27,748 bases of DNA from Spirogloea muscicola (taxonomy: Eukaryota > Streptophyta > Zygnematophyceae > Spirogloeales > Spirogloeaceae): NCBI GenBank assembly GCA_009602725.1, contig WELB01000074.1, positions 186,064-213,811 on the forward strand, given 5' to 3'. The first letter of the stretch is position 1; each line of letters opens with the position of its first letter. The notes under the pieces are model-generated. The model had not been told where the DNA came from. It ran no database searches and saw nothing but the letters and a program-made list of their open reading frames with translations. A program made the translations under genes and the position numbers. Shown here one piece after another: positions 1 through 27,748 of the stretch.

Positions 1-301
1 GGCCCTCCACCGGCCCCCCGCGGCCTGCTGCGCCGCGCACGCCGGGCACACACGGCCCCCACTCGCGCCGCGGCGGAGCGGCGCCGACGCGAGTGCCCAA
101 TGCCGTTCGGCATCTGGTGCATGTTGTGGGTCACAAGCGCTCTCGCGCTGTTCTCTTGCATAGCTGTGTGTGTTTCGGCGCCTTTCGGCCCTTAAGACGG
201 TGTTCATTCTTTCTGGGCTGGCTTTCGTACCCATTCCCCTCGTTGGTCAGCTTTGGTCGCACCCAAAATTGTGGGGCCACACCGAAGCGAACGCCGTTGG
301 C
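1..301. other. GC-rich intergenic stretch with one repeat-unit copy
   Basis: No gene is supported here. The first 100 bases are very GC-rich and look non-coding. A plus-oriented copy of the dispersed ~50-bp unit lies at about 201-245, recognisable by the lead-in TTCATTCTTTCT and the core GGGCTGGC at 215-222; it is diverged after the core. The frames that stay open run across the transposon border at 302 and show no family motif, so I do not call them. Confidence 0.5.
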
Positions 302-304
302 TAA

Positions 305-718
305 GGGCCGGGTTACACCGGGTCGGTCGAGCCGAGCGGTACGTGTCGCGCGTTGTATGGAATGAACGGCGTTGCACTGGCGCGGGCCCGGTCGCGGTCG
401 CACGCCACGAAGGCGCCACATGGGACGCTGACCAGGTCGCCTTTTGGGCGCGTCCAAGGAAGCAACGCGCGCGTTGGCCACGCTGGCGGCCGGAATCCAG
501 ACAACCTCCCGAGGTGCTCTGGATTCCCAAAACCCCCCCCTCCCGCCTTCACGCCGGCCCCGCCCGACAAGCGACAGCTGGCACCAACCTCCTCCAAATA
601 CACGGAGACTCAAATACGCATCCGCACGTGCAGGCGGCCTCGGCCTCCGTGGCAGCGACCCCCCCTTGACCCGGCGGTCGAAACGATTTTGGCCGACCGA
701 CCCGGTGTAACCCGGCCC
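305..718. mobile_element. Non-autonomous DNA transposon (MITE), PIF/Harbinger-like
   Basis: A 414-bp element bounded by perfect 25-bp terminal inverted repeats at 305-329 and 694-718, both starting GGGCCGGGTTACACC when read inward. It is flanked on both sides by TAA (302-304 and 719-721), which looks like a 3-bp target-site duplication. A TWA duplication together with ends starting GGG/GGC is the known signature of PIF/Harbinger elements. The interior is GC-rich with no transposase motif, so the copy would depend on an enzyme encoded elsewhere. The perfect ends suggest a fairly recent insertion. Assignment to the superfamily is inference; the inverted repeats and flanking triplets are directly visible. 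Confidence 0.8.
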
Positions 719-750
719 TAAGAAAGAAGCAAGCGCGGCCAGATTAACTG

Positions 751-810
751 GTGGCTGGGAGAGGCCAGCCCAAATGAATGGACAAGGTCCGGAGCCGGAG
801 TGCTTAGGAC
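751..810 (-). repeat. Dispersed ~50-bp unit, minus copy, with upstream tail sequence
   Basis: Core GCCAGCCC at 764-771, preceded by GGTGGCTGGGAGAG and followed by AATGAATGGACAAGGTCCGG. Read on the minus strand it gives CCTTGTCCATTCATTT, then the hairpin core. Further on, 830-865 contains CTCAGTAACCTCTAGTCAG, a block found again near 14630-14650, so the family extends at least 100 bases beyond the core. Confidence 0.7.
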
Positions 811-866
811 TGAGACAGCAGTAAGCGAACTCTCAGTAACCTCTAGTCAGTAGATGCAAATCCGAA

Positions 867-901
867 TAGCTAGCAGGCGGAAAGACGTCGCCTGCTAGCT
901 A
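867..901. repeat. Perfect 13-bp hairpin
   Basis: TAGCTAGCAGGCG at 867-879 is followed by a 9-base loop and its exact reverse complement at 889-901. The stem itself contains the smaller palindrome GCTAGC. It lies between the repeat-unit copy at 751-810 and the reverse-transcriptase relic at 1089-1595. A function is not evident; it may be the fused ends of a very short foldback element or an RNA structure inside the old LINE 3' region. Confidence 0.75.
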
Positions 902-994
902 AGAAAGGGGCAGAGGGTCACGAGGCGAAAGTGGTTTTGAAGAGGGGGACTTGGGTGCCCACGAATCAGCACATTCCACTTTCGGCAGTCTCAC

Positions 995-1112
995 TTGGGT
1001 AGCCGGAGCGCACCGCCACGGAGGCCAGTGGCCTAGTAGTGGAAGCCCAGCGTGCTGATGGATGATTAAGCCTGGGAGTGCTGCGACCTCAGCGGGAGCT
1101 ACATCCTGTAAC
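995..1112 (+). repeat. Diverged direct repeat, copy A
   Basis: This segment aligns with 2813-2922 in the same orientation. Shared landmarks are a GGCCAGTGGCCT / GCCATTGGCCT block, CCCAGCGTGCTG / CCCAGCACGCTG, and GGAGTGCTGC followed by TCAGCG. Several substitutions and small indels separate the copies. It overlaps the downstream (minus-strand) end of the reverse-transcriptase relic and is probably part of the same old element family. Confidence 0.55.
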
Positions 1113-1595
1113 ACGCAAACCCCGCGAAACACTAGTACGCCCCAAGCTGCCTTCCCTGACTACGACGGCGCACGTCCACAAGCTGGGCCACACGCTGAGG
1201 GACGCCCCGTTTCTACCGTAGCCGCCAGAGATCCAGAGCGCACGGATAGGAGTGGCCTCCTCGTGGTTGGTCCTGGTAGAGACCATCCTTTGTGCTTCGC
1301 GTGGGTTGTGGCCCAGCCAGGCAGAGTCGGCATGACTATCCCAGAAATCTACCCCCTTGGAAGCGTCAATGAGTTTGACGTCAAGGAGGAGGCGAGGCCC
1401 TTTACTGGGCGGAATGTCGATTACGGCCAGGCGCCGCACATTATGCTTGCTACGTAGCTTGTGCTTGTGCTTGGAGACGGCATGATGCCCGACACACCAA
1501 TCGCCGAACAGTAAGCCTTGCGGACACATGCCAGTGTAACATCTCTGTAGTGGATTGTGGAAGGCAATGTGCTCGCCATCCTCAACACATCTCAA
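1089..1595 (-). mobile_element. Decayed LINE-type reverse-transcriptase C-terminal region
   Basis: The minus strand stays open for 168 codons. The translation contains GHHAVS then KLRSKHN, and DIPPSKGPRLLLDVKLID then SHADSAWLGHNPREAQR. This order, a His/Cys-rich knuckle, a basic RHN/KHN patch and then a 'LLLDVKLID' strand, is typical of the tail after the reverse-transcriptase domain in many non-LTR retrotransposon proteins. The polymerase motifs themselves (FADD-type box) are absent, so this is a 5'-truncated, inactive remnant. The plus strand is also open over much of the same span, but shows no family motif and is read as its shadow. Assignment rests on remembered motif layout, not on a search. 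Confidence 0.45.
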
Positions 1596-2812
1596 GCATG
1601 TGGGCAGCTCATGATGTAATCAGCTCTTTGACGACCCTCGCAATGGCGGATGCCAGTCAAGCGATTGGGTAAATGGCCGGAATGATGATGGACTGCTGTA
1701 CAAATAGGTCATCCGCAAGCCAAAAGAATCGTATTGTCGGAAATGCGTTTGATAAACGCGATGATCAGCGCAAAGCCACCAAGGACTGCCCTTATGGATG
1801 GGATGGCTCTCCTAGCGGACGACGGTGGCTGGCGGAGGACCTCTGCACCAGGGCAAGACAGTTCGCTTCCACAAGGTGGTATTGGTTGTGAATGAAGAGC
1901 CTGAAGGACTTAAAGAGCGTTGGAGGAATGCATGGATGGTGTTGAGGTAGAACGGCGCCAGCTAGGCCGACGCAGCATATCAAGCCAGCCGCGACCAGAG
2001 AATCCATGCCAGCTCTGTAGCGGGAAGAGCAGCCTGACGTCAGACTTACCGGTGCACAAAGTGCAATTGCAACGTGGGGGCCAAAGGCTGAAGCTGATTG
2101 CCACCAGCTTTACACCAGTGGAGGAAAGCGCAAATCATGCATGCTTCGTAAGGAGCTCAAACGACTGGGTGCTCAATGGAGATGAGTCCTGACAAGGTAT
2201 CTGGGACTGAGTGACACAGCTCGATGTATTTTTCGTCTACAAGCTACTCTGACTTGTGGCTCCTAAGAAGGAGTTGTTGGACGTTCGTGAAAGGCTGTGC
2301 GTAGCTGTGGGGTGAAGCACTTTCCGGCCCCTCAGACTTTGTCCACGTCTTTTCGGGCTAGCTTTAAGGGGCACAGTCTTAACACAACCCGTCGGGTAGC
2401 GGAACACTTGCGACCAGAGTCGGTGCTTGGGAAGCACGCACGCAGCAGCCTCCGACCGCCTGGGCCGTCCGCTGGTGGGCGGCGTGAAGGCGGCCGGACA
2501 GCTGCTCGGTGGACCTTCGCCAAGCAGGGCCCACCCGCTGCACGCGCGCAACCCGCATGAAAGGGCAGAGGTGAATCATTCCGAAGGGGGCGGGGGCTAC
2601 GAAAAGCCACCCTAGAAAGAATGAATACAATCCTAAGCGAAAGGCGCCAACACCCCACAGCTATGCAAGAAGAAGGGCGCGCGGTGCGCATGAAAATGAG
2701 ATCGAGGCCATTTCGAGTTTTATACAAGTCTGGTAATGGGGCAATGAGCTGGCTAAGGGGGTCTCTATTACCCACGAGTGAGCACATACATTCCCGACAA
2801 GCTAAGCTGAGG
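1596..2812. other. Intergenic stretch with degenerate repeats
   Basis: No gene is supported. Short open frames on both strands lack motifs, plausible splice signals or plausible starts. A degenerate minus-oriented copy of the dispersed unit is recognisable at about 2590-2630 (AAAAGCCACCCTAGAAAGAATG). The stretch probably consists of old, fragmented transposon sequence. Confidence 0.4.
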
Positions 2813-2922
2813 ACCCAGAGCACCACCCGCAAGCCATTGGCCTGGCCATGATCGCCCAGCACGCTGGTGTATCGCTAGTGCCCTAGGAGTGCTGCAGACT
2901 CAGCGAAAGCCGCATATCATAG
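2813..2922 (+). repeat. Diverged direct repeat, copy B
   Basis: Partner of 995-1112, in the same orientation. The best conserved part is GGAGTGCTGCAGACTCAGCG near 2886-2905, matching GGAGTGCTGCGACCTCAGCG near 1074-1093. The following 2923-3230 shows no gene. Confidence 0.5.
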
Positions 2923-3230
2923 CAGGCAACTAATGCTTGCGGGAAGCTAGAATGCCCTAAGATACCCGTCCGACTCAGTTGGCGGGCATCGACAAGCTGT
3001 GCCAGGCGATAGAGGCGGGAAGAAGTGGTCGCCCCGGGGGTGGTCCTTATGATGGCGCTTATAATTGCGCAAGACAAAAGAGGGATGGGAGCTTAGCAAT
3101 CACGAGTCAGAAGCCATGAGTCAAAGGGACTGGCAGCTGGTAAAGAGGCACCTCAACGAGACCCTAATATAGCAGGCAAAGCAAGGCCTGCCCGCAAGAG
3201 CAGTGCGTGAGCCTGGGAATGTTGGAAGGA

Positions 3231-3390
3231 CTAGGCAATGCGGAACACTTGGGCAGGCGACCTGGCGGCATAGAAGCCGGGCAGCTCACTCTGCTGTCCC
3301 TGCCGGCGATCGATGCCCGACGTGCAAGCTGCTGCAGAAGGTCCAGCCACCGACTGCCACATTCCCCGTGCACGCCCATCCAAATTAAAG
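3231..3390 (-). mobile_element. Second reverse-transcriptase tail relic
   Basis: On the minus strand the translation reads VHGECGSRWLDLLQQLARRA and ends near LPKCSALPSPSN. It is clearly related, at both nucleotide and protein level, to the minus-strand frame at 5401-5730 (VHGALGSQWLDLLARLARRA), although the two differ at many bases. The conserved 'D/G-VHG..GS.WLDLL..LARRA' segment fits the extreme C-terminus of LINE proteins, where a 'FVPLAV(D/E)...G' strand is followed by a helix of this kind. A repeat-unit pair lies immediately on its 5' side (minus sense), at 3380-3480, so different insertions are nested here. Confidence 0.45.
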
Positions 3391-3482
3391 CATTTCCTAA
3401 AACGAGGCGATGGCTTCACAGGCCAGCCCAAAAGAAGCAGCTCCTTCAAATGAATCTGATGGCTATGAGAAGCCAGCCCAAC
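3380..3482 (-). repeat. Two tandem copies of the ~50-bp unit
   Basis: Cores GCCAGCCC at 3422-3429 and 3472-3479 are exactly 50 bp apart, and each is preceded by GATGGCT and an A/G-rich stretch. Between them lies AAAAGAAGCAGCTCCTTCAA, the reverse complement of the unit's second half (consensus TTGGAAGAGCTRCTTCTTT). This shows that the unit is about 50 bp and can be tandem. Confidence 0.75.
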
Positions 3483-3540
3483 AGAAACAGCTCTTTCAAG
3501 GTAAGGCAAGGGCTTTGAAAGAAAAACACTTCAAATAGGA

Positions 3541-3660
3541 GGCGATGGCTGTGATTGACCAGCCCAGAAAAGATTTAAGAAGATACGAAGGCCAGCCGTT
3601 TAGACCTTGTTCAGTCCTTTTGGGCTGGCCTCTAACAGCCATTGCCTTATTTTGGAAGAG
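3541..3660. repeat. Inverted pair of repeat units
   Basis: A minus copy (GGCGATGGCTGTGATTGACC at 3541-3560) faces a plus copy (core GGGCTGGC at 3622-3629, followed by ACAGCCATTGCC). The outer ends are reverse complements of each other, so the segment can fold into a long imperfect hairpin with a loop of roughly 45 bases. The minus copy has the variant core GACCAGCCC. Confidence 0.7.
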
Positions 3661-3848
3661 CTATTTTAATCAATGGATTGAAGAAGGTCCAATAGGGCCA
3701 AAGGCGCAGAAAAGGATGAGCGAGGGCTGAAGACAACAGCAGCTCGTCCACATGAAGGCAGTGGCTGTGGTAGGCCGGGACAAAAGCAATGTATAATGGC
3801 AGGAAAGCGCAATCCACACAGCTATGCAAGCGCAGAAAGACGCTTCCA

Positions 3849-3900
3849 GTATAGGGCGATGGCTGTGAGAGGCCAGCCCAGAAAAGAAAGAGAGGTCTGA
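3849..3900 (-). repeat. Dispersed unit, minus copy close to consensus
   Basis: GGGCGATGGCTGTGAGAGGC at 3854-3873 followed by CAGCCCAGAAAAG; this is one of the copies closest to the apparent consensus. It stands alone, with no partner unit adjacent. Confidence 0.75.
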
Positions 3901-5160
3901 AGGGGCTTGTATGTAATAGGGGCGCTCTCAACTATTGACAAATTACTGGGATGGTGCCACGCACAGGCTAGTGAATCTGGGACGCCAGCCGCGCAGAGAG
4001 ACGGCGCCGAGACGCGGCAATACTCTTGAGGGCAATCCCAACGGACGGCGGTGGCGACAAGAAGAAGAGGGCGTCAAGGCAAAGCCGAGCGCGTGCGCTG
4101 TGAAGAAGCTCAAAAGAGAGTAGTTCTCAAGAGGCAGACGATGGCTGTGGAAGCGAAGACAAAATCGCTTCCCAGGTGGACAAGGTCCTAACGGGCCCAG
4201 AAGTGCTCAACACAAAAAGAAACGATCGCTGGGGCCAGCGCAAATAGACAGGGTCAACGTTCAATCAGGTTGTGGCAGTCAGGCCGTAGGTGGACAACAC
4301 TGTGAGAAGCTGACATCCTTACCCACATCCAGCGAGGGGCCATACCGCATTGAGATGGGCGCGTGGCTTTGCACCACCAGCCTGCAGACTATTCTTGGCT
4401 TTTGTGGATGCTTTGCCCTTTGCCTGTCTTCCCTCCTCACCCCTTTTTTACCCTTCGCCCCTCCTTACATTGGACGAAGCGTCTGCTTTGCCTAGCTTTG
4501 CTACAACTGCTCGACCTCTTTAAACATACCTTTCATCTGGCTCTCTCAGCGACCGCTCTAAGTGGCTGGCTCCTCACAGTCACTACTCCTAATGGGAGCA
4601 CACATTCCTGCTTTCCTGAGGGGCCCTGTATATGTAAGGGAGGGTGCGATGTGGGGGAATTCATAGCTGGTCTGGCTAATTTACTGATTACTGATACTGA
4701 TACTGATACTGATACTGATACTGATATTTACTGATGGACGATGGTCGACGGGCAGCTTGAAGTAAGAGCTCCCATGCACACCAAGAAGAAAGCCCGTCTT
4801 GCTCTTGGGCCTCAACATCCGCAGAGGCCCTGCTACACTAATGGGATTTCCTTTCGCCCTGATGAGGCACCAGCTAATCGCAACCATCTTGAGTTGTTCA
4901 GCAGAACAGGGAACTCGGCAACTGTACGACCGGTTTGCACAAAATCTTCGACCACCACCGTCTTCCCTGCAGCGGTCCTTGGCATTCGCCGTTCACTTGC
5001 GGCAGGCCGCGCCGTGGCTGCGCCTCCAGGTCTCAACAGGCGATGCTTTTCCGCCCTCTAATTCTTTGATCTGAACTTGCTGACGATAGATGATTGACTT
5101 ACTTGCACAACTCATGGCGAACAATGTTTTATGCGCCTTCCATCCCTGTTCAGACCTTGT
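3901..5160. other. Intergenic stretch, unassigned open frames
   Basis: No gene is supported. Two overlapping plus frames at 4741-5074 stay open for about 90-105 codons; one includes LYDRFAQNL and a leucine/arginine-rich tail, but no family is recognisable and no splice partners are evident. They could be relic transposon coding sequence or chance in GC-rich DNA. A hexamer microsatellite lies at 4690-4725. Confidence 0.35.
4690..4725 (+). repeat. (ACTGAT)6 microsatellite
   Basis: Six perfect tandem copies of the hexamer ACTGAT, with one more copy offset on each side (4683-4688 and around 4730-4735). In one frame it would encode alternating Thr-Asp, in another Ile-Ser, but nothing around it looks coding. 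Likely to be length-variable between strains. Confidence 0.9.
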
Positions 5161-5189
5161 TCCACTTTTTCTGGGCTGACCAATCACAG

Positions 5190-6390
5190 AGAAGTGGCAC
5201 TCCCAATGGGGGCAAGGGCTGTGGAAAGCCAGCCCGAAAAGAATTGACAAAGTTTCGAAGGAGCCAAATGACGGAGGGGCCTGAAAAGCGCTAAACAGCT
5301 ACGAAGGGGCCTGAAGTTGCTATGTCAGAACGGGGGAGGATGGACCACTCAGTACTTACGAGTGAGGAGCCTCAAGTCCGACAAACTAGCTGCCGGAAAA
5401 CTATTCCTTTGTCGAAAGCCTGAGGCCGTAGCGAGAGCACGGCCAGCACGCAGATGCAAGGCGTGGGCCATGGACCGCCGAAGGGAGACTGACAATCGCA
5501 ATGCAGTATACCTGGGCCCACGAGCCAGCGGCGTTCAAGTCAGCCGGCTCACCGCGCCTGCGGGACATAGCGCGGCGCGCAAGCCTGGCCAGCAGGTCGA
5601 GCCACTGGGACCCGAGAGCCCCGTGCACGTCCACAGCCAGGGGGACGAACTCATCTGCAGCCGGGTGGTCGGCGTATTTGGCCGCCTTGCTGCGAGCGGC
5701 CTTCGCCGCAGCGTGGCCAGTCACAGCCATCAGCCCTCAATTGGACGAAAATGAAAGCTCTGCCAATCTAAGGTAGTGGCTGTGAAAGGCCAGCCCAAGA
5801 AGAATGGACAAGGTATACTGGAAGAGTCTTTCGTCTCGTACATTCTTTGGGCTGGCCTCCCACAAGCCCACGCCTTGCATCTGTGTGCTGGCCGTGCTCT
5901 AGCTGCAGGCCTCTCTCTGGCTTTCGGCAAGGGGATTGCTTTGCGCCATGTCACTTCTTTCGGGCTGGCTTATCACAGCCATTGCCCCCATTGAGAGAGC
6001 CACTTCTTTCCTTGCGACGGCTAGTCTTTCTGACTTTGCGGCAGGTTACTAAGTGATTATACTACTGGGAAAAGCTATTGGGAAGGCGCTTTCTTGGCCC
6101 CTTCGGACCTTGTCAAATCTCTATGGCAGGCTGTTTACAGCCCTTGCCCCTCTTTGGCTTTGCTAGTTTGGGGGATAGTTGTCCGGCAGCTAGTCTGTCG
6201 GATTTGAGGCTCCTCACTCGTATCTACTGAGTGTGTCCATCCTCCCGCGTTCTGACATAGCTTCTTCAGGGCCCCTTCGTAGTTGCTTAGCGCTTTTGGG
6301 GCCCCTCCATCATTTGGCCCATTCGAATCTTTGTCAATTCTTTTTCGGGCTGGCCTTTCACAGCCCTTGCCCCCAAGGAGCGCCACTTCT
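5190..6390. repeat. 1.2-kb imperfect palindrome
   Basis: About 215 bp at 5190-5405 reappears as its reverse complement at about 6170-6390 with scattered mismatches. Landmarks are GCTATGTCAGAACG near 5320 against CGTTCTGACATAGC near 6250, ACGAGTGAGGAGCCTCAA near 5358 against TTGAGGCTCCTCACTCGT near 6206, and GCTAGC-type ends. The left arm then continues at 5405-5475 (CGAAAGCC ... GCACGGCCAGCACGCAGATG), pairing with 5865-5935 (CATCTGTGTGCTGGCCGTGC ... GGCTTTCG). The right arm therefore carries about 230 bp of extra sequence (5940-6170) between its two halves. Unit copies lie at 5172 (+), 5228 (-), 5789 (-), 5849 (+), 5962 (+) and 6347 (+). The structure fits two copies of the same retroelement tail inserted head to head. 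Confidence 0.75.
5401..5730 (-). mobile_element. Third reverse-transcriptase tail relic
   Basis: A minus-strand frame of 109 codons with the translation ARSKAAKYADHPAADEFVPL, then AVDVHGALGSQWLDLLARLA and RRA. A basic K/R-Y stretch, then 'FVPLAVDV.G.LG', then a leucine-rich helix, is the usual ending of LINE reverse-transcriptase proteins. It is the best preserved of the three relics. Read on the minus strand it is followed, in order, by the 5190-5475 palindrome arm and then the ~50-bp unit at 5228, which suggests that these are the 3' untranslated region and 3' end of the same element. No polymerase core is present upstream, so the copy is 5'-truncated. Family assignment is from memory of the motif pattern. 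Confidence 0.5.
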
Positions 6391-6399
6391 TTGCTAGCC

Positions 6400-7183
6400 C
6401 CTCGTTTTCTGTGGGCGTGCCCTTCCCTTCTGCGCAAGGTCATCTAGGAGATGCCACTTAGCTAACTCGTCTTTACTGCTTTGTCGGTCCAGCCGTGGCC
6501 CGCTGCAGCGGGAAACCCGCCCCGCGGACCTGTCAAAGCCGGGCAGCGAGCGCCTGCCGCGTGGCACGCTGCACCTGCCAGCCCCTTCACCCCCCCTGGT
6601 CCAGACCAGAAGCCTGCCCGCCTGAGACGGGCAGGAGGGACAAATTTTCGGGCTGCTCTCGTCAGGGCCTACCCATCGAAGCAACGGCCGACGGGAGTTT
6701 CTCCTTGACGTCGTTGCGAGCCAGGGGCAGCGAGCGCCCCCTAGAGCACGCCGGCCCTGCCCGCTCCGGACGGGCAGCACGGCAAAAAGCGGGCAGCTTC
6801 CACCACCGTCACGTTGGACGGCAATGTGACGCGCTAACGGTGTGCCCCTGCCAGCGCGACGCCGGGCAGCTGTGTGCACGTTTCGCAAGACCAGGCCCCG
6901 GGAGGCCCGCCGTCATCCGCGGCGCGGCGGCGGCGGCTTCGGCGGCGGAGGCGGCTTCGGTGCTGACACGGCCGTCGTGCCTCCTGCCGGAGCGGCTGCC
7001 GCGCCCGTCGTTGGCAGCCACAGCCTCGCTTTGACGGCAGTTGCGGCTTCATAGGCCACGGCCGACACTGGCGCCAGTGAGCGAGGGAGTTCCCGTCGTT
7101 GCCAGGCAAAGGCGGTGCCGCTGAGGCGGACGAGGAGCCAGAAGCCAGGATCTTGGCGGAGGATTTCCCTGTGCTCGCGCGCG
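6400..7183. promoter_or_regulatory. GC-rich hairpin-bearing region upstream of the LETM1-like gene
   Basis: No separate gene is supported. Three short hairpins are visible: CCTGCCCG/CGGGCAGG at about 6614-6636, CTGCCCG/CGGGCAG at about 6757-6779, and GTCACGTTG/CAATGTGAC at about 6807-6830. GGGCAGCGAGCGCC occurs twice (about 6541 and 6727). 6918-6960 is a GGC/TTC-rich simple repeat. The segment next to 7184 should contain the promoter and 5' untranslated region of the downstream gene; no TATA box stands out. Confidence 0.4.
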
Positions 7184-12080: not shown

Positions 12081-13647
12081 ATACACCTCGTAACATCTGC
12101 TGCTTTGCAGTGAGACCTGTATAGGTTAAAAGTGAGGACCGTCTTTGCCGACCCTTAGGAGCTTTACAGGTTCTTATAGGAGGATGAGATTGCCCATCTC
12201 CTGACAATTTTCCTTCGTTAAGTCAATTAGATGATTTATTGGCTTGATCATGCAGAAGGCAAGTTGCAAAGCCATTTCACTCTGTTGTCATCACAGCAGG
12301 CATCACAGCACGCAGTGTCCTTGTAGTGAGGGCATTGAAGAAGCTGATGTGATTTGGCAAGTGAGACAACAACACTGTAGCCCCTGTCAGGATATCTTAA
12401 GAGATATGACACAAGATCATGTCTGGTGCGTCCCTTTGGTCAGAAGCAAGATATACCATGTGAAATTCCTGGTATTTACTATACCTTCCCACCATGCACT
12501 GCTGTATACCCAGCTGTCCGTTCCATACCCTTCACATGAGAATCTTCCATGCCCCTCGCATGAGAGCTCTCGTGCTGGAGGAATCTCTTCACACATGTCA
12601 TCAGTACTAGCAGATTCCATACGAAGATACATAAAACCCAGTGAACAACATGAGAGTAGGCAAGAATAGGATGCAGCGCAATGGCCCCCGCTTGTAGGTC
12701 AGCACCTCTAGGTTTTGACTTACTTAGGCCTCACTTAGGCGTTGTTGCTCACACATATTGCTCTCCTCTCCTCCCTCGTTTCTGCATGTTCCACTTTAGG
12801 TGGATGCGCAGTCGGCACTGGCGCCCCCGCCAAGGAGTACAATGAGCACCATGGCTTGCGTGGAGACTGGCATACTGCGGATGCAACTCGGCAAGAGCAG
12901 CCTTTTAAAAGGTGGGGGCTGTCCTCTTAAGCATAATGAAGCGCGTACACTTGGTTTTGCGGACAATTACAATTTGTGGTCTGTGTTTCTTGTAGAAGTG
13001 CACAACACTTAGCGTTTCACAACAGCTCCCCCCTCCCTCCCCCTCCCCTCCTGCCCCCGCAACCCTGCATATAAGTCACAGCCTTGCAGCAACTCAGGGT
13101 AAATGTGCGTCGACTTTCTGTGCTGAAAGGTCGCACAGGTAGCAGACTTTGTGATGCACTGGCTCTCCTGCTTGCCCAAGTTACCAGGTCTTGTTGCCAG
13201 TATGCTGAGGTCGGCTCCACTGTACAAGTTTAGGGTCCCAGAAAAGGCCTAGATTGCTGTGCTTCGTCTTTGTACTGCCAAGGAGTCTGCATTCAGGTGC
13301 AACAAAACTTCAGCCAGAATATCCTGGTCTGGAGGCTTGGTTAAAGGCAACCCTTCGGCCTACCTAGATAGTGCCACCTGCTGAGGGCTCTACCAGAGCT
13401 TCAAGACAACCCCACAACCAGACGGGCTCTTGAATCGGTCCAAGCAAGTACGCCAACAAGAGAACAACGACTGGAACCGCTCTCTGGCGGCGTACGACTG
13501 CGCGGACCACGAGTTGACGGGGAAGCAATGTTTGGGCGGCACCAAGTACTACTAACGTCGCTAGGGCTTCCAGCCCGCGGCCGCACCAAGGATTGGACGG
13601 GATGGAGCACGCCCCGCGGCTGAGCCTTCCCATCATAAGGGGGGCCG
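12081..13647. other. Region downstream of LETM1-like gene; possible extra exons
   Basis: No complete gene is supported. Two pieces look like exons: 12180-12216 (after TTCTTATAG; reads EDEIAHLLTIFL) and 12800-12911 (after a pyrimidine tract and TTTAG; reads VDAQSALAPPPRSTMSTMAC ... GILRMQLGKSSLLK, ending AAAAG|GTGGGG). They might extend or alternatively end the LETM1-like transcript, or belong to another gene. 13022-13060 is a long C/T-rich tract. At 13385-13555 the plus frame is open for 56 codons and ends in TAA (RQQENNDWNRSLAAYDCADH followed by GGTKYY); it lacks an ATG and a clear splice acceptor. Confidence 0.3.
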
Positions 13648-13770
13648 AGCTGCTTCGTTTCTTTTCTGTGCTTGCTGTTCTTTGTACTTCCCCTGGCCCC
13701 TTCTCGTCCTTTGTTCATTCTTTTCTGGGCTGGCTTTTTCCAGCCCCTATCCTCAATGGGCGAGCCCTTC
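13648..13770 (+). repeat. Left arm of a long inverted repeat
   Basis: About 120 bp that returns as the reverse complement at 15622-15744 with only a few differences. The landmarks AGCTGCTTCG, TTTGTACTTCCCCTGGCCCC, TCGTCCTTTGTTCA and TATCCTCAATGGGCGAGCC are in both arms. It contains a unit copy (core GGGCTGGC at 13727-13734) whose hairpin is extended to GGGCTGG/CCAGCCC. The arms are far more alike than most unit copies are to each other, so the duplication or gene conversion is recent relative to the family. Confidence 0.85.
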
Positions 13771-15621
13771 TTCTGGCCGAGCGGTTGCGCCACGTCTAGA
13801 CCCGGGAGGCTAGGATGCATGATGTGACGGTACACTGACCGAGCCTTCCCGTTTGCAAGGTCCACTCCCTTGCTGAGTAACGGAATTAAGCTGCGAGTTA
13901 TGATTGTTTACATTGGAGAGTAGCCAGACCTCCTCGACCTGACAATGGTACTAAGACTCGAATCTTGGCCAGCATCTGTTCAGCAACGACTGTCCATCCC
14001 AAAGACGATAGGGGGCTCTCATGACTCATGGACATGGTGGATACTCTGAGAAGCAAATGTAGGGGCTATTGCACACGTCCTGAGCCCCGTCCAGAGGCAA
14101 ACAGACGAAGCCTTTCAAATGGAGGCCGTACTCATTGAAGGGCAGCCCAAAATATAAGGACAAGGTCAAGGAGAATGCCCCATCGGTGAAATGTAAATGC
14201 TCAGCACACCAAGTAGCTATTACGGAAGGCCACTTCGTAGCCCCTTGTTAATGGAAGCAGCTGAAAAGCAGACAGCTCAGCCAAGTAAGTGGCTCATACG
14301 GATGGCCTCTCCATGACCCCTAGTCAACAGCCGCAAGTCGCTATGAGTAGCAGCTGTAGCGACACGCACACATACTTGCGATAATTTTAGGGCCAAGCAT
14401 ACATCAGGGGTACACCAGGGGGAGGAGGAGCCTGCAGGCCCATTCGGCCCTTGGCCTGATGCTCAGGCTCTGGGCGGGCGACTCTTTTCAGCTGCTAATC
14501 ATTTCAGAGAAATAGCTCTTCCAGATTGACAGCAATGGCTGTGAGAGGCCAGCCCAAAGGAATGGACTAGGTCTGAACGAATGACTCAAAAAGCAGGATA
14601 CTAAGCATTGAAGAAGTCAGCAAGTGGGCTCTCAATAACCTCTAGTCAGCAAGTGCAATTCAGATGTTATGATACCGGACTCGCGCCTGATTGTCTAATG
14701 GCCATCTGTAGTAGCCACTTGCTTTTGCTGAGAGATCCGCAATTTCCGGCCACTTTGGACTTCAATCGCACCTTGTCCGTTCTCAGGTTTGACGTCACAC
14801 TATCACCTTATTCACCATAGAACTGGGCTTCGATTCATGTGGCCCACTATTTGCACAAGCTTTTGCCTGAACAGTGCATTGCCTAAAATTGGCCACTCCA
14901 TGCCATGCGCATCGCGCACCCTCTCTCACGGGCTGGCCTTCAGTCCGCCATCGCCTGCTGTTGGAAGAGGTTCTTCTCGTTCTCTTTCTCTATTCTTCTC
15001 GTCTCGGCACCACATTCTGGCTATAGCTTGGCCGGAGCACGTCGGCCACCAGTTCGCGATGGCGGCAGCTCACGACAGCGACGCGCTGCTGAACGGGAGC
15101 GGTTTCTAGAGGTCAGCCCGGTGGAGGGGGAAGCCCCCGAGAAGTCGGCCAGGCAAGCGGGGGTGGTCCGTGGGGTTTGGGGCTGGGGGCGCTGCACGAC
15201 AGCGACGGGCCGGCCCGCCCCGCTCAGTGGTCCCAGCGACGGCACAGCGTGGGGGTACCTCAACGTGGGGGCCCCACTGACTGAGGAGCCCCAGATATGC
15301 CGAGGGCCTCCCACGAATGCACGTAAGGGCCGGATGAGCCGGCGCCGGTGGGTCTGCGCCGTACGCGTGGCGAGCCGACGGGGGGTGACCGCTTGGACGG
15401 GACCCGCGCTGTCCCGAGGCGCGCTCCCAACCGGGCGAGATGAGCGGCGGCGATGGAGTTCCCCGGGATTGGGTCCGGCTAACCGGGCCATAGGCCGGTT
15501 AACCGCGCCGGGCTATCGCGGCTAGCCTGGGAGGAGTTGATCGGGGGCCGGAAGGCCGCTGTCCCGCCCGTCCCAACAACTCTCGCTTTGTGGCTGTTGC
15601 CGGCCGGCCACTCCGCAGGGG
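13771..15621. other. 1.85-kb spacer between inverted arms, with more units
   Basis: No gene is supported. Unit copies lie at about 14141 (-, variant GGCAGCCC), 14548 (-, close to consensus) and 14930 (+). CTCTCAATAACCTCTAGTCA near 14628-14647 matches the block near 830-850. From about 14990 the GC content rises sharply, and overlapping frames stay open on both strands (up to about 200 codons) without any family motif. I read these as GC-driven chance frames. A hairpin TAACCGG/CCGGTTA sits at 15480-15501. Confidence 0.4.
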
Positions 15622-15744
15622 GAAGGCTCGCCCATTGAGGATAGGGGCTGGAAAAAGCCAGCCCAGAAAAGAGTGAACAAAGGACGAGAAGGGGGCCAGG
15701 GGAAGTACAAAGAAGAACAAGCACTAAAACGAAACGAAGCAGCT
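15622..15744 (-). repeat. Right arm of the long inverted repeat
   Basis: Reverse complement of 13648-13770. It includes a minus unit copy (core GCCAGCCC at 15657-15664). The small differences from the left arm are single-base indels and substitutions, for example one extra C in the GGCCCC run. Confidence 0.85.
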
Positions 15745-16235
15745 ACGAAGCACTCAGTAACCCCTGCTAAGCAGCCTCAGGTCAGAGAGACTGGGTTCCT
15801 GGCAGCAGGTCCCCTGGCCAGAGCCAGAGGCAGCAGGGCCTCGCTTCCCCCCTCACTGGAGGGGCCGCCCAGGCCTGGGGCGGCCCGAGGGGCTCCGGTT
15901 AGCCGACGGTCAGAGGCAGGCCCGGCCCCGTCTTCCGAAGCGGCGGGTAAGGGGGGCTTCCGAGGAGGCGGCCCTCACTGGGCGCCTTTCTCGTCCCCCA
16001 AGCCGGCCCGCCATAGCCACAGCCGGGCCGCTCCCGCCCCGCCTCCCTTCTCCCTGTCAATTCTGGAAGAGTCTCTTTCTCGTCTGGGCTGGCCTCTCAC
16101 AGCCAATGCCTTAACGGTGGAAGAGCTGCTTCTCTCGGGCTGGCTTGTCACAGCACCTCACCCCCGTGCCAGTTCTCGCCATAGCCGCCTGGCCAGCCGC
16201 TTCCGATTCCTCGGAGCCCAGGGCCTCGGCCGAGC

Positions 16236-16268
<33 letters not shown>

Positions 16269-16557
16269 CAGGTACGCCGCCGTGGTCTTCGAGGGGCTCG
16301 GCAACGAGCTCCTGGCTGNCGCGCCCTTTTCCCTCAGCTCACAGCCACTGAAGAGGTCGACGGCCTCCCGCTGGCCCGTCGCAGGCGCTTGTCCATCCCG
16401 GGGCCCGCCACGCGCCCGGTCCGCGGGACAGCCGCCGAGGCGGCGCGCATGGCTCGCGAGCGTGCCCGGGGGAGGTGATCGGCTGCCGAGGCGTCCCCTC
16501 CGAGCTGCCACACGCCACCGTCCCTCGCCCCGCAGCCCGGGGAGCCTGGCGCAGCTG
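15745..16557. promoter_or_regulatory. GC-rich region upstream of the zinc-finger gene
   Basis: Very GC-rich, with a (CCG)n tract at about 16228-16269 and one undetermined base (N) at 16319. One plus frame is open across 15673-16629 (318 codons) but crosses the repeat arm and two unit copies, shows only low-complexity Arg/Pro/Ala composition, and is not called as a gene. It may include promoter and 5' untranslated sequence for the downstream gene, and the real N-terminus could start further left than modelled. Confidence 0.35.
16075..16165 (+). repeat. Two tandem plus copies of the ~50-bp unit
   Basis: Cores GGGCTGGC at 16086-16093 and 16137-16144 are 51 bp apart. The spacer reads CTCACAGCCAATGCC, then GTGGAAGAGCTGCTTCTCTC, giving one complete unit. 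This mirrors the tandem pair at 3380-3482 on the other strand. Confidence 0.75.
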
Positions 16558-19500
16558 ATGGTCAGATCTTGCGACGTTCGCGCAAATGAGGGTGCTCGCG
16601 GGAGCATTTCCCACTCCAACATGAGGTGAGGTCCTCGGTCATTGAGCGGTTTGCTTGCACCAGGCTGGGTATCTGTGCATGCAGCAGTCTGGTACATTGT
16701 GAGCTGCACTGCAGCTGGATAACTTTGCCGCTCAATGGTTGTTGCCAATGGCAAAGCTACGTTGGACACGGCATATCGTCCCCAGCGTTGCCAAGCGTAG
16801 CCAAGGCGTTGCCATCTTGAGTTCTAGTCTGAAGGTTATACTTAGGTGGATGCTGCACCTTTCGTGCCAGCTGGTAGCTCGTCGATCACTGTCACGTGTC
16901 CAGGTATTGGTGTTCGAGCTGAGATACGCAGAGCATGCACGCAGGAGCTCATGCCTGCTGCTCTCACCAGCGGGTCCCTCCCCAACATGCCGACGGCCCC
17001 TCAGGGCAGCCGCACAACCATCGCCACGCCAAGCCAGATGTCACGATCACCACCAAGAGCCGAGGGGCGGGCTCCTGCTGTGGGAATCTCGGTCATGCAT
17101 CCGAGCCTCGTGAACACTCTGAAGTCCATCATCATTACTCCCGTAGCAGCCCCTAGCTCGCAGTCTCCAGACTTGAATCTGCCAACAGCTGCTTCTGCCA
17201 GCAGTGCACTTGGGAGCACGGGTGCTGCGGTGGGGAGTGCAGCTGCAAGTCTAGACGTGGTCTCAGACAGTGTTCCCAGCGAAAGCAGCAGTGTCACTCC
17301 ACCAAGCAGCCCTCAGGCGTGGGCCAGGTCGTCACGGCCGAGGAGGAGGCTGTCGCACTCTCCCTTGTCATTGTCACCGAAGCAGCAGCAGCAGCAGCAG
17401 CATCAGCAGCAGCAGCAGCAGCAGCAAGAGCAGCCAGCCACTTCTTCCTCCCAATATGCTCCAGCCGTGGCTCTTCAGCCGTCATTCCATCCCATCAACC
17501 ATCCGCAGCCGGCAGTGCCAGCATGGGCAAGCATGCCACTGCCAGCTTTCTCGCTCAGGCCCCTTGCACCTTCTGCCAGCTTCCCTCCTTCTGCCTTCAT
17601 CCCAATACCAGGATATTATCCTGGCAGTCAGACCTTCCCCTCTGTGCTCAGCGGGGATAACATGTCGGCTATGACATCAGGAGTGCGACCTACAGCTACA
17701 TTTTGCCAGCCGTATTTGGCTTCTGGTTTCTCTGCGTCGCCATCGACGCCATTGCAATGTAATGCTCTACGCCAGAGTGTTTCACATGTGGAGCACACCT
17801 TGCCTCTGGAGCGCAACTGTGCTGCAGTTGTTCCAGTGGGACTCATCCAGGTAAGCCCCTTGCCAAGGGCTCGATGTGCCCTGCTCAGCATGTGGATGTG
17901 CGAGCCTCACAAAGGAGGAAACCATCAGTATCAGCAGGATGTCAAGGAGTGGTCACGTAGCTTAGTCAACGGAGCTGCTGACATTGAGTAGATGGCCTGC
18001 TGTTGCCATTCAGGCTGTTTGTGGACGTGACTGGTTGCATGGGATGTGGCTGCTGCATCTTCCAATGTGTAATTGATGTGGCATGCAATGCCTGTTATAC
18101 AATCCATGCTCTCCTAACCTTCCCTGGAATGGGCAGACATGCAAATCATACCTCTCATCTTTCTGGCCCACTGTATTTCAACTTCCTCAAAGAAGGTAGT
18201 GTAGTGTAGGACTATTTAAGCGTGTCTCAGAAGTTGATGTGCCCATCCTGCATGTGCAGGACTGCCGACCATTCAAATGCGAGCAGGCAGACTGTGGGAG
18301 GAGCTTCAAGAATGCGCAGACGCTGAAGATGCATCTAAAAGCTCATGTGGCGGTCGACGATGAGGAACATCTCCATGACGGTTATCCCACCGAAGCTCTT
18401 CAACTAGCATTGCTGCAGAGTCACAGGTCGTCCGAAAGGGCTGGCCTTAACAAGAAAATCCCTTCCAGGTGCCCCGAGTGCGACAAGACATTTGTAGGCC
18501 TCTACGAGCTCAGACGGCATTTTGGCCGCAAGCACTCCCAAGGTGACAAGACTTATACATGCAGAAAGTGTGCCAAGGGTTTCTTTGTGAAGGTAGGTCC
18601 GCTAGACCTGGCCTTTGAGCTTGTCTGTGCGAGCTTGTATGTGTCTGTGCTTGACCAGCCTCTGACATGGAAACATCCCATGGCATTGGCCTTGTCGCAG
18701 CTGTAGTTGGCACTTGCATTGCCAGGACTGCAAATCATGTAGCAGTATCACATTCAGCAGACTGTCAGAAAGGCAGCATACTTGCTGCAGATAGAAAGCA
18801 TAAGAACACACTAACATTCTTGCATCTGCTCTTGAATACTCACGTCCTGTTCCTGCACAATCGCCTCCATCTTTGTACAGTTAAGAAGAATGTCAGATTC
18901 GAACTTTGCAAGCAGTAGCCATTGTGCACACATTGATATTCTCTTGCCTTGCGCCATTTACAGGTTGACATGCGTGACCATGAGAAGATGTGTGGAGAAA
19001 CGATTGAGTGCAATTGTGGCATGCGCTTTGCCTTCAAGTGCAATCTTGTGGCCCACAAGAAGCAGCGGCCTGCATGCCAGGACTCGCTTACGGAGGACAA
19101 TTCTCCCAGTCCCAGGTGCCGAACAAGGAGACCTCTTGGCAAGCAGGTACCCCGCTGGTTGCAGAAGGACAGCCGGCCAAGGAAAGATGGGCAGGACGAC
19201 AAGAGGACGAGGGCGTCAGCACTCCTGTACCGCAGGAACAAGGACCGGGAGGCGAAGCTCAACGAGGCTCGAGCAGCTCGTGTGGAGGGGGCATGGCAGG
19301 AGCTGCTCTCGCGGACGGGGACGAGCAGCCAGCAAGAGCAGCTCTCCTCAGGCCAGGCGACTGCTGGTGGCCAACCGCAGAAGCTGGAGGGCCCTCCCAG
19401 TCCCGTGCAGGGCATGATGCACGGGGATGCGGTCAAGGAGGTGCAGGCAAGCGGGCCCCTCGGAGGAGTGTGGCAGGCGAACACCATGAGTCTCAAGTGC

Positions 19501-20955
19501 TTGGACGCCGTTCGAGGAAGCACCATGTGGGAGGACAGCAAGGTGGTCATGCTGGCGGGGCAGCTGCAGGCGGCGACCTCTGCTCACAACCTGAGCCAAG
19601 TTCCTATCGTGACTCAAGATGCTGTGCCCTCTGAGAGGGGTGTGCCGGCCTGTCAACCAGCGCACCACGGATTGCTGCAGGTGGATTCTGTCCTCACCGA
19701 GGCTGCAGTTGGGGGGCCAGGTTCAATTGCAGGTGTGCCGTATGTGGCCTCGCCAGGGCTCCTGTTACCAACTACCGAGGGCGTGCACCCTGCAGCACAA
19801 GTGGGCCAGCTGTTAGCAGGGCATGTTGACCTTGGAAGTGCCTTCCTGTTCAAGGGGCAAGGTGGGCAGCAGCTGGAGCAGAAGCCGCAGTTACAAGAGC
19901 AAGCGCCACAGCAACAGCTGCAGCAGCTAGCTCTGGACTTGCAGCAAAAGCAGCAGCAGCAGCAGCAGCAGCATCAGCATCAGCAGCAGCAGCAGCAGCC
20001 ACAGCAGCAGCAGCAGCAGCAGCCACAGCAGCAGCGGCAGCAGCAGGAGCAGCTGCAGCAGCAGCTGCTGCAGCTGCAGCAGGAGCAGCTGCACCAGCAG
20101 CAGCAGGAGCAGCAGGAGCAGCAGGAGCAGCAGGAGCAGCAGGAGCAGCAGGAGCAACAGCAGCAGCAGCAGCAGGAGCAGCAGCAGCAGCAACATCAGA
20201 AAGAGTTTAAGCAGGAAGAGGACGGGGATGGGGAGCAGCAGCAGCAGGAGCAGCATAAAGAGGTGCAGGAGGCCTCCTTCCAAGACATGCAGCAGAAGGG
20301 CGAGGGAAGCAGCCTCGCATGGAATGCAGAGAGTGCAAGCATGGCCCTGGTTGAGGGGTTCATCAACTCCGACGTAGATGTGGCTGCCAATGCATTGGAG
20401 CTGCAAAAGCTGGCACTTCAGAGGAGTAGTCAGTCAAGCATGCAGAGACTTGCCCTGGCCACAGCCACAGACTGCCTCTTGTCTAATGCAGTCTGCATCA
20501 GACAAGACGGCCATCAGACACGAGAATACCCGCCTCCCTCTGACTTGGACTTCTATGTCAAGCTCCAGCCTGCAGATGTAAGTGCTTTGGGTTATGCTGT
20601 TGAGCTTCAAGAACAGCAGCAGCAGGAGCAGCGAGAGCAACAGCATCAGCAGCAGCAGCAAAAGCAAGAGCAGCAACCTTCTCAGATAGACCTCAACAGC
20701 TTGCATTCCATGTTGTTTCCCGAGCCCCTGTTGCCCTCCACAGTCCACCCTCATCCAGCACATCAGACACAGGGCATGCTTGCCAGTGAGGCTGCACCGC
20801 TCACAACGTCACCCAGCTCGAGAGTGATCAGTGGATCTGGCCATTCCTTAAGTGCAATTCCTCTCTCCTTCCACCCGCCTTTTGTACCTACTCCTTCACT
20901 GTCCACTTCCGTTGGTGGCAATCTGCCAGCTGTATCACAACCTCGGGACATCTAG
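16558..20955 (+). CDS. C2H2/C2HC zinc-finger transcription factor (IDD/WIP/STOP1 type) with long polyQ
   Basis: Model: 16558-16625, 16878-17850, 18260-18592, 18964-20955, about 1121 residues, in frame; the last three exons are firm. The start is not: exon 2 could instead open at 16846 (after TTATACTTAG), or translation could begin at ATG 16951. Four fingers lie at about residues 350-510: FKCEQADCGRSF..H-x3-H; RCPECDKTF..H-x4-H; TCRKCAKGFFVK|VDMRDHEKMC (C2HC, split by an intron); and ECNCGMRFAFKCNLVAH..C (C-x-C start). A C2HC finger ending 'HEK.CG' followed by a C-x-C finger is the signature shared by plant IDD, WIP and STOP1 factors, so nuclear DNA binding is expected. The N-terminal part is Ser/Pro-rich with polyQ at 17382-17434. 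The long tail is Gln-rich, probably an activation domain, and a GT donor-like site at 20578 is read through. Target genes are unknown. Confidence 0.85.
17382..17434 (+). repeat. First polyglutamine (CAG) tract
   Basis: An almost pure CAG run interrupted by one CAT (His) and ending CAAGAGCAG, coding for about 17 residues inside exon 2 of the zinc-finger gene. The purity of the CAG codons makes length change by slippage likely. Confidence 0.9.
19942..20200 (+). repeat. Main polyglutamine tract, about 86 residues
   Basis: CAG-dominated coding repeat in the last exon, with embedded H, P, L, R and E residues. At about 20104-20155 it becomes a regular 9-bp repeat coding E-Q-Q. Read in the opposite direction the same bases give a long leucine-only frame, which is an artefact. 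A third, shorter Gln-rich block lies at 20612-20678. Confidence 0.9.
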
Positions 20956-22690
20956 GGAGTTACGCAAGCACTTCTGTACTTGGCATTCACCTTTAGTGTA
21001 CTTGTCCTATTAATCCATCAATCGTGGCTGGCTTAGCAGGCCAGATCACCCACTCCTGGTATTCTTTCATGTACTTGTAAGGTGTCCTGTTCTACATCAA
21101 GCACAACTCCAATTCAGTAGTACTGACGGTTGGATCAAGCATCAAGCTCGTCTTCACAGGCATGTACCCAATCCGTCACGTTTTATCTGCAATACATACT
21201 GCGATGTTTTGCTTAGATGATCTAGGAGACCTAGTCCTAATGCAAAATTTACAAATTTTAGTCATCTTGGGCCTGGACGTCCTCCGGCGCTACTGTCACT
21301 TACGAGCTCAATTTCCTAGCAATCTGATGATATATCTGTGTCATTGCAGAGTCGGAACTTTTCCAACCTTATCCTGGTGTTGAGTTGATCAGGTGTACCA
21401 TTTCTTTTGGTAACTGTAGCAGGTTATGAAAAGACCAAGGCCGCTTCAACCGCATCACAGAACGTTTTTCCGGACGGCTTCAGAGAAGAGCCTCCCTAGT
21501 GTTGTTTCTTTATATGTATAATTGGCATCTGACCACAAGGCCAGATGTCCTTCAGAGGTGGTGCAAATCCAGCATCAACTTCCGGCCAGCCCACAATACT
21601 GGTGCTGTGCAGGCTAAGCATATTGCAGGTCTTACGGCAACTGACAGTATATCATATCTGGCATGAGGGGGCACAAAAGAGCCATATAATGTACCTCAGT
21701 GTGCAGCTTGGGCTACAATGATTGCTCAGCATGCATTGAGTGCGATTTTGACTTGATGTGGGGAGGTGTTTTATATCCATTGGCTGGTATAATGTCTCAT
21801 TGAGTAAGAGGCTGACTTACAGCACTGGTGAGAGGGTATGTCCTAGCAAATTAGTGAGTGTTACCAGTGAGATTGTTGGGATGAGAAGTTGGCTGCGGAA
21901 TTTGTGACTCTTCCAGACAACCCCTGGTGTTGCTCCTGTCCGTTGTATTCAACAGCCTCAGCTTCTTCTCCACTCAGAGTCCTCAACAGGGCGTGCACCC
22001 TTCTCTGAAAGACCAGCAGACCACCCTCGTCTCGGCAGTATACACAAAGAACTCAATGTGGTTGAAGCTGAACATAGATGTCATAGTGGACATAGCAGAT
22101 TGGGCTGGAAATTTCTTGACTCGGGCGTTGTCATTTTTTGGACCGGCCTTCCACAAAGAACAACCCCTTTCAGAAAAGCTTGCCGTGCCGGTGGGCCGTG
22201 CAAGCGATCCCTGTGGAAAGCGACGCCCCAGTACATGTGGCTCATGCAGAATCTGAAGCAATCGCCCTGCTCCAGTGCGCCCTAGCTATGGCTGCCACCC
22301 ATCTAGGATGAGGACGGAGCCTGTGCTAGTTGTGTGCCGCAGCTGCTGTTGATGTGCTCAACGTGTGCCACACAGAATAACACGTTGCTCATGTATGGCA
22401 CTGCGGGATTAAGCATGCTTGCTCCAATGACGGCGGTCATCATTTATCCTCTCTCAGCACCTCGAGAGTAGAAAGTAGCTCACACTAAAGACTTCCGGAC
22501 CAGGTGACTAGGTATAGATTGTAATGGATCGTGCTTTTAACGGCCAGAGTCCAGGCCTTGAGCACTTCAAAATCTTCTTCAGAATCTGCTGTGCATCAGT
22601 GCGGCAGTCTGCAACAGCTGATGATGCAGGTAACCGGGACATTCAGGGGCTGCAGAGATGGCTTTCTTGGGGCAGGGCAGATAGGTGAGA
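20956..22690. other. 3' flank of the zinc-finger gene and intergenic sequence
   Basis: No gene is supported. The first about 130 bases should be 3' untranslated region. Several plus frames of 70-110 codons (for example 21927-22256) have no family motif. GCCAGCCC at 21585-21592 and GGGCTGG at 22102 lack the flanking unit sequence and are probably chance. Confidence 0.4.
21076..21080 (+). terminator. Possible polyadenylation signal TGTAA
   Basis: TGTAA lies 121 bases after the zinc-finger stop codon. TGTAA is the established polyadenylation signal of many chlorophyte algae. I found no TGTAA within about 1 kb after the LETM1-like gene nor within about 300 bases after the PHR2-like gene, so this may be coincidence and the signal may not be general in this organism. 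Confidence 0.3.
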
Positions 22691-22780
22691 AGCTAGTCCA
22701 AGAGAAGCTCGTCCAAAAGGGGCGATGTCTGCGAAAGGCCAGCCCAAATGAATGGCCCATTAGGGGAGATGACGCCGAAA
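22690..22780 (-). repeat. Dispersed unit, minus copy
   Basis: Core GCCAGCCC at 22738-22745, preceded by GGGGCGATGTCTGCGAAAG and followed by AAATGAATGG; on the left GTCCAAGAGAAGCTCGTCC matches the unit's second half in reverse. Confidence 0.7.
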
Positions 22781-22924
22781 CAACACCACTAATAACATCC
22801 CAACACGAAGCGTGAGCCAATTGGCAGAAGAGGTAGTCGCCACTCTTCGCCTGCATACGGTCGCTTGGGCTGCCGCAGGAGAACCGAGGATTAGCTCGTA
22901 CAAGGCAACTTACTACTAGCAGCC

Positions 22925-22995
22925 AAGCATGATACTTGTGTCCATGCCCTTTTGGGCTGGCCATACCCAGCCATCCTCCTCTTATGGGTAAGAGA
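22925..22995 (+). repeat. Dispersed unit, plus copy facing the previous one
   Basis: TTGTGTCCATGCCCTTTT leads into the core GGGCTGGC at 22954-22961, then CATACCCAGCCATCCTCC. With the minus copy at 22738 it makes an inverted pair about 210 bp apart, repeating the outward-end arrangement seen at 3541-3660 and 5789/5849. Confidence 0.7.

Positions 22996-27656: not shown

Positions 27657-27748
<92 letters not shown>
27657..27748 (+). repeat. Run of 92 A at the window end
   Basis: An uninterrupted A homopolymer running to the last base of the window, directly after GC-rich sequence ending CGGCGCGCAG. It could be the poly(A) tail of a retroposed sequence whose body is the GC-rich segment before it, or an assembly or sequencing artefact at a contig edge. 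No interruptions are seen, which is unusual for an old genomic poly(A). Confidence 0.95.

Follow-up and report, generated by a model that had tools for sequence, protein, structure and literature searches.

Related, 5'-truncated LINE families with a 3' hairpin as the source of an interspersed tail repeat in Spirogloea muscicola

LINEs with a restriction-like endonuclease (RLE), namely CRE, R2, R4, NeSL (including Utopia) and HERO, encode a central reverse transcriptase (RT) followed by a C-terminal zinc knuckle and RLE region, and the elements analysed here appear to share that layout, with a putative RLE-like C-terminal region. Their described boundaries are precise at the 3' side and variable at the 5' side, as in the copies treated below. 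For Utopia, the published description gives a zinc-finger-like N-terminus, an RT in the middle and a knuckle plus RLE at the C-terminus (PMC4640811), an arrangement that the ORF of one of the present families, family B, resembles by eye. HERO is described as including families that target microsatellites. The elements in Spirogloea muscicola differ from the RLE LINEs in their very high copy number, in comprising several families with related GGCTG..CAGCC hairpins, and in their apparent targets, which would be the pyrimidine tracts of other copies rather than rDNA, snRNA or similar sites.

The LINEs UnaL2, ZfL2 and plant L1 belong to APE-type clades. These stringent-type LINEs and their SINEs carry a stem-loop in the 3' tail, as is also the case here. 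For ZfL2, retrotransposition is described as depending on the stem-loop, which the LINE protein binds (PMC4176376), and plant L1s and SINEs are described as having ~50 nt with a hairpin in common (PMC3747384). The loop and stem sequences in S. muscicola differ from those of UnaL2, ZfL2 and plant L1, and as judged from sequence the hairpin is a candidate signal only.

Zepp inserts into itself and becomes nested. Zepp and Zepp-like L1 elements are clustering LINEs of green algae and resemble the present copies in this respect; however, Zepp is of the L1 type, whereas the copies here are dispersed between genes and have an ORF that is R2-like in layout. LINE clusters formed by ZeppL at the centromeres of green algae are described in PMC8226300. 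The green lineage also harbors Dualen/RandI, LINEs with an RLE domain described from Chlamydomonas relatives (PMC8226300, PMC4640811). Dualen encodes both APE and RLE, whereas RVT_1 was the only Pfam match in the ORFs of two family B copies (L043 and L044) at E values up to 0.05.

The starting point was a window of 27,748 nucleotides, meaning the whole stretch of S. muscicola DNA analysed, in which a preliminary description had reported an intergenic repeat unit of ~50 bp. The window contains 23 occurrences of the 8-mer GGGCTGGC; 100 dinucleotide shuffles gave a mean of 2.68 and a maximum of 8. The chance expectation had earlier been put at fewer than one, which is too low, but the observed number is still far above it. 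All 19 exact sites listed at that time were recovered in place, and four more exist (6577, 18438, 21585 and 23380), none of which is matched by the repeat profile. This profile was seeded with 74 copies, window copies included, and is therefore partly circular for the window; its seeds were chosen by the core motif, which biases it toward stems. It gave 25 window matches at E<0.01 and no match in 335 kb of dinucleotide-shuffled sequence. Eighteen of the 19 listed sites and two of three near-matches were among the matches; the site at 14930 (E 1.5) and the near-match at 14141 (E 0.19) were weak. The 25 matches are confined to three blocks, at ~0.2-6.4, 13.7-16.2 and 22.7-23.0 kb. These lie outside the presumed genes, as had been claimed, although Pfam supports just photolyase and C2H2 zinc-finger exons among those genes. 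Pieces of the three blocks matched other fetched loci in 78 of 133 cases, compared with 4 of 253 for the rest of the window, and Rfam gave no match in the window.

Several other features of the window may be recorded. Positions 26147-26746 and 18200-20955 hold photolyase/cryptochrome exons, with the DASH type among the best PDB matches, and C2H2 zinc fingers next to an extended polyglutamine ORF. A segment of 422 bp at 301-722, between 29-bp inverted repeats that are 97% complementary (CTAAGGGCCGGGTTACACCGGGTCGGTCG) and flanked by two tail copies, is probably a small DNA transposon. A short CTGATA-like repeat run occupies 4681-4732, and a run of 92 A (27657-27748) reaches the window end.

In the genome that the window comes from (153.1 Mb in 471 contigs), where 68 matches to exons of light-harvesting proteins support a chlorophyll a/b lineage, the exact core 19-mer GGGCTGGCCTYTCACAGCC occurs 2,599 times, 1,296 times on the forward and 1,303 times on the reverse strand, and its reversed control not at all. 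The claim that copies lie on both strands is thus borne out, as is the presence of thousands of copies genome-wide, which had been set beforehand as a test. Twenty regions of 2.5 kb, placed arbitrarily and amounting to 39.3 kb once N is removed, yielded seventeen profile matches; extrapolation gives ~66,000 copies, a rough figure because the matches were clustered (7 of the 20 regions, with 7 matches in one), so that the total copy number may be in the tens of thousands. A core 25-mer was absent from the viral contigs searched, and the 19-mer occurred once in a bacterial and archaeal collection. Literature searches, made outside Repbase, found no description of the repeat or its LINE families.

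Forty loci (L001-L040) were taken from 100 of the exact 19-mer places; they do not overlap and all lie on contigs 1 and 2 of the 471. Some of them contain other repeats. One of ~700 bp (L011:305-996, L033:55-751, L014:1622-2019; 91-94% identical) starts with TGTAACGATTT and ends in ..TTACAC, and in L011 it sits within the lead-in of a core copy. Another locus (L037:1216-1993) has local repeats that are 69-73% identical and shifted by ~117-470 nt.

When the forty exact-core loci were compared with each other and with the window, many alignments ended just after ..CCACTTCTT, and their other end varied. This border was quantified with eight mutually related family A queries that run 94-225 nt past the tail end. 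Among their 388 alignments passing the hairpin, which are not independent, 236 stopped between -2 and +9 nt from the family A tail end, 145 stopped 6-29 nt short of it and 7 went beyond. The 5' ends lay 48 to 524 nt upstream of the tail end, the lower value being set by a filter at ~46. The combination of a fixed 3' end with variable 5' truncation, as expected of a LINE, was thus found, for family A queries only. The ~50-bp repeat is real, but it is no free-standing unit, as longer copies reach hundreds of bases upstream and contain coding sequence there, with an ORF end ..SDLRLLTRTY*. The sharp 3' border and mobile origin suggested by the preliminary description are both upheld, by the alignment ends and by homology to LINE ORFs.

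Many copies are shorter than 150 nt, and these might be SINEs that have borrowed the hairpin and tail of a LINE 3' end and rely on the LINE enzyme for mobilization in trans; Chlamydomonas SINEs are described as sharing 3' ends with RandI/Dualen or L1 LINEs (PMC3747384). A SINE would have a fixed 5' head, but the longest shared 5' extension per exact-core locus (n=40) ranged from 7 to 128 nt with no common start. Furthermore, some copies keep the end of the LINE ORF, and a tRNA-like head was not found: the single ARAGORN call in the window (16789-16885, tRNA-Pyl, probably spurious) has no copy within 600 nt of it. A SINE origin is therefore considered improbable.

The evidence for parent elements favors the reading, which we regard as well supported, that several related LINE families gave rise to the repeat, as the 3' end of their 5'-truncated copies. 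A search of the genome with two tail-linked C-termini gave at least 150 scored places each, from 8,351 and 10,828 first-look candidates. Only family B was seen at full length, in two copies (L043 and L044) that form one shared block of 3,959 bp, are 99.7% identical over it and have the same start base. Their open frames of 1,313 and 1,350 aa match RVT_1 in Pfam (E 1.1e-16) and, in PDB, the RTs of group II, R2 and, weakly, L1 elements; the N-terminus has a zinc-finger-like CPVC..H..C motif by eye. Family A, whose interior is N in L041 and L042, is 43-47% identical to the intact B ORF across 513-670 aa (L048, L049 and L050; E 1.9e-98 to 1.2e-164). The joint A/B alignment holds an RT with YADD, a CxC..H..C (CCHC) knuckle and, read by eye, a C-terminal R-x-D..DVV motif, which we take to be that of restriction-like endonucleases. 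In a PDB profile search with this alignment the RT part alone aligned (to R2, L1 and other RTs), and for this reason the assignment of a restriction-like-endonuclease-like C-terminus is provisional. As a separate observation, N runs in L041, L042, L045, L046 and L047 begin or end at almost the same internal positions of family A and are probably gaps left by the assembly where LINE interiors are nearly identical.

At least five related families carry the tail: A, C, D, E and F. An RT ORF is linked to it through B and A, and families C, D, E and F were seen at the C-terminal part only. The exact-core family C has the same LINE C-terminus in L017, which matches at 69% across 29 aa (E 8e-8, from a search set of small size), and in L035. 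Families A, D (L006), E (L021, L049 and the window) and F (L046) have a common layout, in which an LLTRGY*-like stop is followed by ~55-110 nt, the hairpin and the terminus. The tail of family B differs in that the core hairpin is absent, with GGCCATTTGGCC in its place, and the terminus is ..AATACACGA.

Within the window, the copies and their parts are collected in Table 1. Four copies retain the ORF end in translation. The copy at 5190-5718 reads RLSVSLRRSMAHALHLRAGRALATASGFRQRNSFPAASLSDLRLLTRKY*, is 82% identical to L048 (query 1588-2099) and 85% identical to L024 over 534 nt, and has split an older tail copy in its hairpin; the left half of this older copy is the earlier near-match at 5172, and the right half begins at 5717, its first bases being the target duplication CCAGTCACAG, corresponding to CCAATCACAG at 5180-5189 on the left side. 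The second family A copy is inverted relative to 5190-5407 (88% inverted match to 5187-5407), and the matches at 6094-6157 and 6303-6396 overlap it or its upstream neighbor.

Table 1. LINE and tail copies in the window
Feature	Position	Strand	Basis
Family A LINE copy, 5'-truncated: ORF end, 3' UTR, hairpin, terminus ..GTGCCACTTCT	5190-5718	-	
LINE ORF end ..SDLRLLTRKY* of the 5190-5718 copy	5349-5498	-	Translation; tblastn with family B ORF, E 5e-8
Hairpin GGGCTGGCTTTCCACAGCCC of the 5190-5718 copy	5216-5235	-	Minimum-energy fold and centroid
Older tail copy, left half, split by family A insertion	5128-5189	+	23.2 bits alone
Right half of the split tail copy	5717-5756	+	4.2 bits alone; 36.4 bits joined to left half
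Second family A copy, 3' UTR and tail	6170-6392	+	76% to L048 query 1896-2101
Family E tail copy, hairpin 13727-13746	13648-13773	+	Inverted repeat with 15616-15744; profile E 1e-8; fold
Family E copy, ORF end SDLRLLSRGY* at 15754-15786	15618-15836	-	87% to L021 over 211 nt; translation
Family C-type copy, ORF end SDLHLLTRGY at 834-865	715-865	-	Profile E 4e-16 (715-804); translation
Family C-type copy, ORF end SELHLLTRGY* at 14632-14664	14505-14664	-	Profile E 1e-17 (14505-14580); translation
Tail copy	176-224	+	Profile E 1.5e-6
Tail cluster	3380-3912	3380-3435 -, 3440-3487 -, 3516-3596 -, 3595-3667 +, 3738-3776 -, 3822-3912 -	Profile E 0.006 to 2e-16
Tail copies	5744-6396	5744-5826 -, 5836-5878 +, 5940-6015 +, 6094-6157 +, 6303-6396 +	Profile E 0.0013 to 1e-16
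Two head-to-tail tail copies, 51 nt apart	16077-16154	+	8-mers 16086, 16137; profile E 2e-10, 0.007
Tail copies	22700-22992	22700-22755 -, 22939-22992 +	Profile E 1e-6, 2e-7

The core forms a hairpin whose start lies ~45-50 nt upstream of the 3' end, the position at which an RT-recognition stem-loop is expected, and it may serve in recognition. The stems of the families are variants of one another: GGGCTG/CAGCCC in A, GGCTG/CAGCC in D, GGCTG/CAGCC or GGCTGG/CCAGCC in C, and GGGCTGG/CCAGCCC with shorter loops in E and F. A stem of at least 5 bp is possible in 120 of 139 non-seed copies, compared with 26% of shuffles. Minimum-energy folding yields the hairpin for both A tails, for the E, F and D tails and for the C-type L053, but not for the family C copy L017, and fold z-scores of eight tails ranged from +1.15 to -2.93. 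A test for covariation in single copies found none: changes in the right arm left the pair unpaired in 93 cases and paired in 23, changes in the left arm in 24 and 2, and double changes in 19 and 8, respectively. Uncompensated substitutions are what dead copies would show, and with no covariation within copies the structural claim is based on the differences between families.

Target duplications were found for some insertions: CTGTCCA in L050, CTGATACACCTGC in L039 with extra bases on the 5' side, CTCTTT in L043, and CCARTCACAG (9/10) for the window copy at 5190-5718. A clear duplication is present in a minority of the 19 copies displayed, and the lengths differ, from ~6 to 13 nt. Such unequal lengths are hard to reconcile with the repeat being a MITE, or another DNA-transposon end with an inverted repeat, mobilized by transposase cut-and-paste. 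The core is indeed an inverted repeat, and short copies are scattered over both strands, but one border is fixed while the other varies and copies continue into a reverse-transcriptase ORF, so that this origin is very unlikely.

The sites of insertion were studied in copies picked by protein match, 40 of family B (all used) and 16 of 20 family A tails, with L114 left out for an N run and L121, L126 and L129 because the tail end was not recognised. At least 7 pyrimidines in 8 nt were found in the 3' flanks of 32 of the 40 B and 8 of the 16 A copies, compared with 5.2% of random positions; the first pyrimidines after the family B end could still be element sequence and not target. Core copies were present within 140 nt in 16/40 B flanks, with no orientation bias (8 plus and 8 minus by best match), and in 12/16 A flanks (9 plus, 3 minus). 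The flanks matched other fetched loci for 32/40 B and 15/16 A copies, against 35/200 random pieces; this signal of self-landing is just moderately above background, because the window blocks also match (the 78 of 133 pieces given above). A stricter rule, suggested by L028 and L043, would place B insertions between the hairpin and the TTGGAAGAGC of a tail. This site specificity was not borne out in the 40 B copies, which were picked regardless of the core, and what remained was the pyrimidine-rich 3' junction.

Insertion into earlier copies is seen directly in the split tail of the window, and in L028, as read from the sequence, a B insertion with CCTTAC at either side appears to interrupt a family C copy. 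Another A tail directly precedes the start of a truncated A copy in L050. Adjacent tails have the same orientation in 96 of 142 pairs, and among those less than 110 bp apart 27 are in the same and 5 in opposite orientation. Some neighbors are 44-51 bp apart, head to tail, as might be expected if the repeat were a minisatellite of ~50 bp spread by unequal exchange and dispersed locally. However, array members often come from different families (e.g. L015, L036 and L038), copies were present in 7 of the 20 arbitrary regions, and the link to LINE ORFs also disfavors a minisatellite, for which there is very little probability. The landing of new LINE copies beside pyrimidine tracts, usually in other repeats, would explain both the head-to-tail arrays and the gene-free placement.

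With high confidence, we favor the explanation that the tail repeat derives from the 3' ends of related LINE families, with a hairpin that the RT would bind, truncation and landing at pyrimidine tracts. The parent ORF encodes an RT, and downstream of it a CCHC knuckle and a putative C-terminus resembling a restriction-like endonuclease. About 55-110 nt past the stop (..LLTRGY* or similar), the RNA can fold into a hairpin of 5-7 bp (GGGCTG..CAGCCC and variants), and the remaining ~30 nt run to the pyrimidine-rich terminus. Most likely, the RT binds this structure and begins target-primed reverse transcription from the 3' end next to it. Reverse transcription would often halt early, a presumed cause of the stubs of 50-100 bp, and new copies would land at short pyrimidine tracts, often inside earlier copies, building head-to-tail intergenic arrays. 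Landing in earlier copies may go beyond what repeat-rich DNA would yield as a by-product.

A further proposal, which we put forward tentatively and hold to be somewhat more doubtful than probable, is that the LINE tail acts as both handle and landing strip. The families would share an RT-recognition hairpin and a pyrimidine end preferred by their own endonucleases, and each insertion would provide a new target. The result would be a self-maintaining safe harbor of nested, often head-to-tail tails that spares the genes from tens of thousands of insertions. Hairpin recognition and a pyrimidine tail as target are both ordinary in kind, to judge from what the literature describes.

With this analysis, an interspersed repeat that had lacked an explanation can be annotated as LINE tails, and the related LINE families, with their natural hairpin variants, provide a test set for how an RT chooses its RNA. 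If it is true that the tails are preferred targets, these retrotransposons would be a case in which massive multiplication nonetheless spares the genes.
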